Part shown: piece by piece, positions 1-2,461 of the stretch
Layout of the letters: the number at the start of each line of letters is the position of its first letter
Numbering within the stretch: the stretch's first letter is position 1
From: Culicoidibacter larvae
GTDB taxonomy: Bacteria; Bacillota_I; Bacilli_A; Culicoidibacterales; Culicoidibacteraceae
Direction of reading: 5' to 3'
Assembly (NCBI RefSeq): GCF_005771635.1
Contig: NZ_VBWP01000002.1
Coordinates: 1-64,000 of the forward strand
Length of the DNA: 64,000 bases
The notes under the pieces: generated by a model
Seen by the model: only the letters and a program-made list of their open reading frames with translations
Told to the model about the DNA's origin: nothing
Database searches by the model: none
Program-made: the position numbers and the translations under genes

Positions 1-294
1 CCTTGGTACCCGCCACCTTGACGATTTCCACCGTCACGGTTTCCTTGGTACCCGCCACCTTGACGATTTCCACCATCGCGGTTTCCTTGGTAGCCACCGC
101 CTTGGCGATTTCCACCGTCGCGGTTTCCTTGATACCCGCCACCTTGACGATTTCCACCATCACGGTTTCCTTGATAACCTCCGCCTTGGCGATTCCCACC
201 ATCGCGGTTTCCTTGGTACCCGCCGCCTTGGCGATTCCCACCATCACGGTTTCCTTGGTAGCCACCGCCTTGGCGATTCCCACCGTCGCGGTTT
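1..294 (-). repeat. Seven tandem 42-bp repeats inside infB
   Basis: Seven direct copies with an exact 42-bp period begin at 1, 43, 85, 127, 169, 211 and 253; a partial eighth starts at 295. On the minus strand every copy reads NRDGGNRQGGGYQG. The copies differ at several bases, but every difference I translated is synonymous. More copies may lie left of the window. Confidence 0.95.
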
Positions 295-629
295 CCTTGA
301 TAATCACTTTCTTGTCTTACATTACTTCTTTCAGAAGTATTTGAATTTGAAGCCGAACCAGTATTCGCTTCATTAGCTGTCACAGTTGCCTTTGCCGCCG
401 CTTTTTTTGCAGCAAGTTTATCAGCTTCGATTTTTTCTTTTTTGGTTTCAAAAGCTTTGAGCAGATCAGGGAACTTACTTTCTTTTTCGACAAGTAAATT
501 AATGTTATCTTCGTTTAATTGAGACATGGCATTTTTAGCTGGGATACCAAGCTCGTTTGCAATGATGACAACGTCTTTAACTTGCCATCCTTTTTCTTTA
601 GCCAATTCATGAATTCGCTTTTTTCCCAT
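1..629 (-). CDS. infB: Translation initiation factor IF-2, N-terminal part (truncated by window edge)
   Basis: IF-2 is the GTPase that brings initiator tRNA to the 30S subunit. Only about the first 209 codons are here; the GTPase and tRNA-binding domains lie beyond the left edge. The ATG at 629 follows a GAGGTG ribosome site. Residues 1-50 (MGKKRIHELAKEKGW, then LGI) form the small IF2_N helical module. An Ala/Lys-rich then Ser/Asn-rich linker follows. From about residue 112 to the edge the chain is a Gly/Arg/Asn/Gln-rich tandem repeat with unit NRDGGNRQGGGYQG. Position after nusA-ylxR-ylxQ is the standard nusA-infB operon order, which supports the call. The repeat is unusual for IF-2, whose N-terminal region is normally variable and unstructured. 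Confidence 0.93.
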   Translation of the reverse strand, partial: MGKKRIHELAKEKGWQVKDVVIIANELGIPAKNAMSQLNEDNINLLVEKESKFPDLLKAFETKKEKIEADKLAAKKAAAKATVTANEANTGSASNSNTSERSNVRQESDYQGNRDGGNRQGGGYQGNRDGGNRQGGGYQGNRDGGNRQGGGYQGNRDGGNRQGGGYQGNRDGGNRQGGGYQGNRDGGNRQGGGYQGNRDGGNRQGGGYQ

Positions 630-1261: not shown

Positions 1262-2461
1262 TTATTCTTCATCCGTTGTAGATGCTTCATTATCATCTGC
1301 TTCAACTGCTTCAACTGCTTCAACAACTTCTATAACATCTGATTCTTCGTCTTCAATGATATCTTCAATAACTGCAATGTCATCTTGCTCAATTTCAAAG
1401 TCAATACCAAACTCTTTTGCTTCAGTCTCAGATTTTATATCAATTTTCCAACCTGTTAATCGTGCTGCCAAGCGAGCATTTTGTCCTTTTTTACCAATTG
1501 CCAATGATAATTGATTATCTGGTACAATAACCATTGATTCATGTTCTTCATCATCTTCATCTAATAGAACCATAGAAACAGATGCAGGACTCAAAGCATT
1601 AGTAATATATTCAACCGGATCATCTGACCAAAGTACAATATCAATTTTTTCTTCATTTACTTCATCAATAATTGCTTGAATTCTCATTCGCTTCGGTCCA
1701 ATACATGCTCCAACAGCATCAATAGTAGGATTATCACTATAAACAGCGACCTTTGAACGATCGCCAGCCTCACGAACAATATTTTTCACTTCAATCAAGC
1801 CGTTAGAGATTTCTGGAATTTCTCTTTCAAACAAACGTTTCAATAAACCAGGGTGTGTTCTAGATACTCTTATCAATGAACCTTTAGTAGTTCTTTCCAC
1901 TTTGCTTAAGTAAACATCAATCTTATCGCCATGCGAAATTTTCTCACTAGCAATTTGATCATATTTTGAAAGCAATGCTTCGGTTCGTCCGATATTTACA
2001 TAAATGTTACCATTTTCATGATCAATCGAAGTTACAATACCAGTAATGATTTCGTCCTCCCGATCAATGTATTCATTATAAATAACATCTCTTTCAGCTT
2101 CTTTAATACTTTGCAAAACAATTTGTTTAGCTGTTTGAGCAGCAATTCGTCCAAAATCTTTTGGCGTTACTTCCTCACGGATAACATCGCCGGTTTTATA
2201 AGTCTTCTTAATTGTTTTAGCTTCATCAAGAGAAATTTCTTCAAGCGGCTCTTCAACTTCTTCAACAACCGTTTTTAATGAATAAACAACAATCTTCCCT
2301 TTTTCAGCATCAATAGTTACTTCAACATTTTGTGCCTGATCAAAGTTTTTCTTATATGCAGACACTAATGCATGTTCGATGGATTCAATAATGATCGCTT
2401 TGTCAATTCCTTTTTCTTTTTCAACCGTATCTAAGGCTTGTAAGAATTCTTTCGTATTCAT
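1262..2461 (-). CDS. nusA: Transcription termination/antitermination factor NusA
   Basis: NusA binds RNA polymerase and modulates pausing, termination and antitermination. The 399 residues hold the N-terminal polymerase-binding domain (about 1-125), an S1 domain (about 130-200, GIVTSIDHENGNIYVNIG), and tandem KH domains (VGACIGPKRMRIQAI and AIGKKGQNARLAARLTGW). The C-terminus is a highly acidic tail with a short VEAVEAVEA repeat, about 50 residues beyond KH2, longer than in some Bacilli. It follows rimP by 17 nt in the conserved rimP-nusA-ylxR-ylxQ-infB operon. AAAGGAG precedes the ATG by about 11 nt. Confidence 0.96.
   Translation of the reverse strand: MNTKEFLQALDTVEKEKGIDKAIIIESIEHALVSAYKKNFDQAQNVEVTIDAEKGKIVVYSLKTVVEEVEEPLEEISLDEAKTIKKTYKTGDVIREEVTPKDFGRIAAQTAKQIVLQSIKEAERDVIYNEYIDREDEIITGIVTSIDHENGNIYVNIGRTEALLSKYDQIASEKISHGDKIDVYLSKVERTTKGSLIRVSRTHPGLLKRLFEREIPEISNGLIEVKNIVREAGDRSKVAVYSDNPTIDAVGACIGPKRMRIQAIIDEVNEEKIDIVLWSDDPVEYITNALSPASVSMVLLDEDDEEHESMVIVPDNQLSLAIGKKGQNARLAARLTGWKIDIKSETEAKEFGIDFEIEQDDIAVIEDIIEDEESDVIEVVEAVEAVEADDNEASTTDEE

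Follow-up and report, generated by a model that had tools for sequence, protein, structure and literature searches.

In Escherichia coli IF-2 alpha, the N1 domain binds NusA and is joined to the core of the protein by a flexible linker (PMC12297416). The IF-2 linkers of E. coli and Caulobacter drive phase separation with RNA, a behavior that is induced by cold, and E. coli requires this linker for growth in the cold (PMC11838494). Long disordered regions are common in a set of 39,197 IF-2 sequences (PMC11838494), and no other bacterial annotation has as many low-complexity regions as IF-2 (PMC6821194). Furthermore, Arg-rich low-complexity regions are enriched in prokaryotic RNA-binding proteins and RNA-related functions (PMC6821194). 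A literature search on tandem repeats in infB returned nothing relevant.

The infB gene of Culicoidibacter larvae lies at the edge of the window, the stretch of 64,000 nucleotides from contig NZ_VBWP01000002.1 that was analyzed here. It encodes a low-complexity linker in the same protein and at the same place as in E. coli and Caulobacter, and it shares with the prokaryotic low-complexity regions described earlier an IF-2 segment with the Arg and Gly enrichment seen in RNA-binding proteins. However, it differs from the E. coli and Caulobacter linkers, which are implicated in RNA-dependent condensation and fitness in the cold, in holding a perfect tandem array of a Gly/Arg/Tyr 14-mer. It likewise differs from the low-complexity regions surveyed previously in having a regular 14-residue unit that is identical in at least nine copies (PMC6821194). 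The array is a lineage-specific version of a type of segment that is often present in IF-2 proteins.

Gene context and the contig break

The gene encodes an otherwise ordinary IF-2 with a complete core. Over its two contig parts, the product scores 852 bits against TIGR00487 (cut-off 424), and Pfam detects a second IF2_N domain ahead of the G domain as well as the GTPase, EF-G_D2, IF-2 domain 3 and C-terminal domains. The array is placed in the linker that separates the two IF2_N domains, i.e., between N1 and the N2/G core. Its assignment to the N-terminal region of IF-2 in the first-pass annotation is thus borne out by the IF2_N domains flanking the linker and by the TIGR00487 score. In the minimal join of the two contig parts, the linker is long and of low complexity (287 residues, 21% Gly and 12% Arg) and presumably disordered.

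Table 1 Features of the infB region and other loci discussed in the text; positions are those of the window unless a contig is given
Feature	Position	Strand	Basis or remark
infB (IF-2), 5' part	1..629	(-)	ATG at 629; runs off contig start inside repeat
Stretch of 77 bp identical to end of contig C4	1..77	(-)	Assembly break within array
Seven tandem 42-bp units encoding NRDGGNRQGGGYQG	1..293	(-)	Seventh one base short at window edge
Non-repetitive linker part, K/A/E-rich then S/N-rich, end ...RQESDYQG	294..485	(-)	Translation
N-terminal IF2_N (N1) domain, residues 1-48	486..629	(-)	Pfam PF04760, E 2e-9
Rest of infB	G000:C4:220541-222742		Open frame, 734 codons, overlap included
NusA C-terminus, acidic low-complexity repeat	1262..1330	(-)	EVVEAVEAVEADD
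Prolyl-tRNA synthetase-like protein, 415 aa	7369..8616	(-)	Catalytic core and anticodon domain
Leucine-rich-repeat protein, 485 aa	56725..58182	(-)	Signal-like N-terminus
tRNA_edit (YbaK-like) gene	G000:C2:335047-335349

The upstream genes, named by eye rather than by family search, follow the order polC, rimP-like, nusA, ylxR-like, L7Ae-like and infB, and an rbfA-like gene starts after infB on contig C4, which places infB in a nusA-infB operon context. The NusA encoded in this operon ends in an acidic low-complexity repeat; in E. coli, the C-terminal region of NusA is the partner of N1. Elsewhere in the window, the prolyl-tRNA synthetase-like protein contains no tRNA_edit (INS) domain detectable by Pfam, and a separate tRNA_edit gene is found on the same contig. 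The leucine-rich-repeat protein is probably secreted.

The first base of the window is also the first base of contig C2, which breaks inside the array, while the rest of infB is found at the end of contig C4. A search of the genome's contigs revealed the repeat on no third contig, and the unit was found in no other gene of this genome. The minimal join of C2 and C4 contains nine perfect NRDGGNRQGGGYQG units and a tenth, degenerate unit, NRDGGNRQQSGGFN, so that the array, whose copies to the left of the window the first-pass annotation had left to be counted, extends to at least nine perfect copies and one degenerate copy. The longest exact repeat in the minimal join is 56 bp, which is shorter than the 77-bp contig overlap and would not present an assembler with an ambiguity at this point. 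Therefore, the actual array probably exceeds the ten copies of the minimal join, an argument that assumes a de Bruijn assembler with a word length equal to the 77-bp overlap. As the case illustrates, part of an essential gene can be concealed when a contig ends within a repeat.

The array and its 14-residue unit

All seven units in the window read NRDGGNRQGGGYQG, and all seven are distinct in DNA at third positions only, confirming the initial description of seven 42-bp copies with a single peptide. The array is beyond chance, with a period-14 self-match score of 123 that was reached by none of 200 shuffles. Open frames on the opposite strand across the array are trivial, because the repeat period is a multiple of three, and were not regarded as meaningful.

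Each unit contains two Arg residues and one Tyr spaced by Gly, Asn and Gln, and carries a net charge of +1. The spacing of Arg and Tyr by Gly, Gln and Asn is shared with eukaryotic RGG/RG and FUS-like sticker-and-spacer domains. However, the RG dipeptide is absent from the unit, in which Arg precedes Asp or Gln, and the host protein is not a eukaryotic RNA-binding protein. The comparison is therefore an analogy only, and the earlier label "RGG-like" is too loose for a unit with neither RGG nor RG.

Divergence among the copies

The nine resolved units comprise nine DNA sequences and one peptide, which requires a minimum of 11 synonymous and 0 non-synonymous changes. Variation affects eight of the 14 codons and is confined to the third base. 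The dN/dS comparison between units that the first-pass annotation had proposed gives a dN of zero and a mean pairwise dS of about 0.69. A random change in the unit would be synonymous with a probability of 0.24-0.30, and 11 synonymous changes out of 11 correspond to a neutral p of 1e-7 to 2e-6. Purifying selection on the array peptide is supported by this excess of at least 11 synonymous over 0 non-synonymous changes (p about 1e-6).

The copies of the array are not independent lineages. All four combinations are present at 19 of 28 pairs of variable sites (four-gamete test), which points to exchange among copies or recurrent mutation, and the copy at the edge of the array, NRDGGNRQQSGGFN, is altered in its peptide. 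Such features are in keeping with recent expansion and homogenization by slippage or unequal exchange of a peptide that is not itself selected, as are the tandem structure and the silent codons AAC, AAT, CAA and GGA that the copies hold in common without variation. We nevertheless consider this explanation very unlikely, since exchange would spread silent and non-silent changes equally, whereas all nine units are distinct in DNA around a constant peptide. The initial argument that selection rather than slippage explains the array thus holds as far as the neutral p of about 1e-6 is concerned; however, synonymous-only divergence is also compatible with exchange between copies, and four-gamete mixing is frequent.

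The codons of the array are unevenly variable. Six never vary (among the invariant codons are Asn1 AAC, Asn6 AAT, Gln CAA, Gly4 GGT and Gly14 GGA), Arg is encoded only by CGT or CGC, and CGC, TAC and GGG are commoner in the array than in the rest of infB or in the elongation factors. The third-position GC content is 0.39 in the array (window 1-299) versus 0.23 in polC and nusA, and 56% of the Arg codons of the array are CGC, compared with 11-12% in the elongation factors and the core of infB. The GC3 excess might stem from biased gene conversion between copies.

A constraint on the mRNA, either on its structure or on a binding site, could in principle act in place of one on the peptide, and the predicted RNA fold of the array is indeed more stable than that of dinucleotide shuffles (z -6.6). 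However, the fold is not unusual against codon permutations: equal stability was reached by 8 of 60 permutations of codons among copies and by 3 of 60 in which codons were dealt per amino acid. Moreover, changes restricted strictly to third positions are unexpected under a nucleotide constraint. An RNA-level constraint is therefore disfavored, and we regard it as extremely unlikely.

Arrays in related IF-2 proteins

A search of 394 other Bacilli genomes returned no match to the exact NRDGGNRQGGGYQG unit, which, judged on this comparison, is lineage-specific; sought in related genomes as the first-pass annotation had suggested, it is absent from every other sampled genome. The kind of segment, however, is already known, with IF-2 at the top of the list of bacterial proteins with low-complexity regions (PMC6821194).

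Tandem arrays rich in Gly, Arg, Gln, Asn and Tyr are present in the same IF-2 linker in all four genomes of the order that were examined, with units that differ. In a genome of the same family, the IF-2 frame of 1091 codons includes 13-mers such as QPQQGGYQNRPAG, in about 16 copies, and two congeneric species of another family contain the 14-mers RPQRDGERRPYNND or RPQQGGDRPRYNND; the genus of the window organism itself is sampled by one species. In the two congeners, a DRGGNRQGGQG segment lies beside a conserved LERQI segment and resembles NRDGGNRQ of the window gene, and the two may be what is left of an ancestral motif common to both. These congeners (L121 and L122 in G002 and G003) also have a nearly identical 40-residue island (GERLEPLEAPGERRPYYNNKTRG..), while the arrays flanking it differ in unit and number. 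The island reads GERLEPLEAPGERRPYYNNKTRGxTDGEQLPNSYRAMPKR and lies between two fast-changing arrays. Taken together, these comparisons show that the array habit persists in the order while the units turn over. Selection on the peptide, as originally proposed, is supported by the synonymous-only divergence among the copies (at least 11 versus 0), but selection on this exact peptide over longer times is not supported, as no other sampled genome has the unit and the units of order-mates differ.

The arrays of the relatives are also less strict, as they require a minimum of 14 non-synonymous and 27 synonymous changes, compared to 0 and 11 in the window array (Fisher p 0.025, for units picked by pattern and changes that are not independent).

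For the wider Bacillota, IF-2 proteins of 80 genomes were fetched by similarity of the core, of which 76 had linkers long enough to score; the scored set of 80 rows, four of the order included, is biased to close core matches and is no survey. Outside the order, strong arrays, all rich in Gly, Arg and Gln, are found in 8 of 76 scored IF-2 proteins: five from Sporosarcina, two from Paenisporosarcina and one from Mesobacillus foraminis. Array-free linkers are typically short and Lys-rich (sample medians of 112 residues, 16% Lys and 5% Arg). Because most sampled IF-2 proteins have such a shorter, Lys-rich linker without repeats, the array is dispensable for IF-2 function in general. The arrays outside the order (e.g., SGYQGNRPQG and RPQGQSGN) are likewise rich in Gly, Arg, Gln and Asn and occupy the same linker, and those of Paenisporosarcina have GYQGNR in common with the window unit. 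However, their units contain Pro, are less uniform and have fewer Tyr residues than the window unit, and these arrays probably arose independently.

Possible role of the array

We regard it as moderately probable that the array represents a low-complexity tether, expanded and of the sticker-and-spacer type, which connects N1 to the N2-GTPase part and adds weak contacts with RNA or ribosomes, or condensation. The two Arg residues and one Tyr of each 14-mer would act as "stickers", and Gly, Asn and Gln as spacers, so that ten or more copies would form a long, flexible and multivalent chain. Its contacts with RNA or ribosomes would most likely be weak and nonspecific with respect to sequence, and, besides tethering N1, the array may favor condensation, perhaps at low temperature. 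The copies were probably born by tandem duplication, and would swap sequence among themselves and be purged of amino acid changes; in the longer term, new units would supplant old ones, with the composition staying similar. RNA binding and condensation, suggested already in the first-pass annotation, are plausible by analogy, because the IF-2 linker phase-separates in E. coli and Caulobacter (PMC11838494). The reading as a multivalent Arg/Tyr-and-Gly linker draws on this phase separation, on the N1-NusA interaction and on the literature on low-complexity regions. Counting against this reading, E. coli IF-2, which has no repeats of this kind, also phase-separates, and NRDGGNRQGGGYQG is devoid of RGG.

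The main rival to such RNA contacts or condensation is a passive spacer, i.e., only a flexible connector, of whatever length is tolerated, from N1 to the ribosome-binding core, in which array growth is mutational drift and selection merely removes hydrophobic, aggregation-prone or stop and frameshift variants. The turnover of units in the order, the variation of copy number and sequence within one genus, the lack of the array in most related IF-2 proteins and the flexible connection of the NusA-binding N1 domain to the core in E. coli (PMC12297416) all agree with a passive role. However, the purging of harmful variants alone would not predict a pattern as strict as 0 amino acid changes alongside 11 or more silent ones. 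Exchanges of N/D, Q/N, G/S or R/K should be tolerated in a passive spacer, yet none occur; the arrays of the relatives are looser (14 non-synonymous to 27 synonymous, Fisher p 0.025), and a composition of Arg, Gly and Tyr recurs. We therefore consider a passive spacer rather unlikely.

A stronger form of the tether with RNA contacts or condensation would see the IF-2 of this order as a dedicated Arg/Tyr scaffold, in which the number of copies sets how readily the initiation machinery condenses and the unit is repeatedly replaced while the sticker grammar is kept; this appears decidedly unlikely. If the arrays are truly scaffolds for condensation or RNA binding, the order would offer a set of natural variants, with different units and copy numbers in sister genomes, that could be used to test whether selection acts on the length, the composition or the sequence of the linker.
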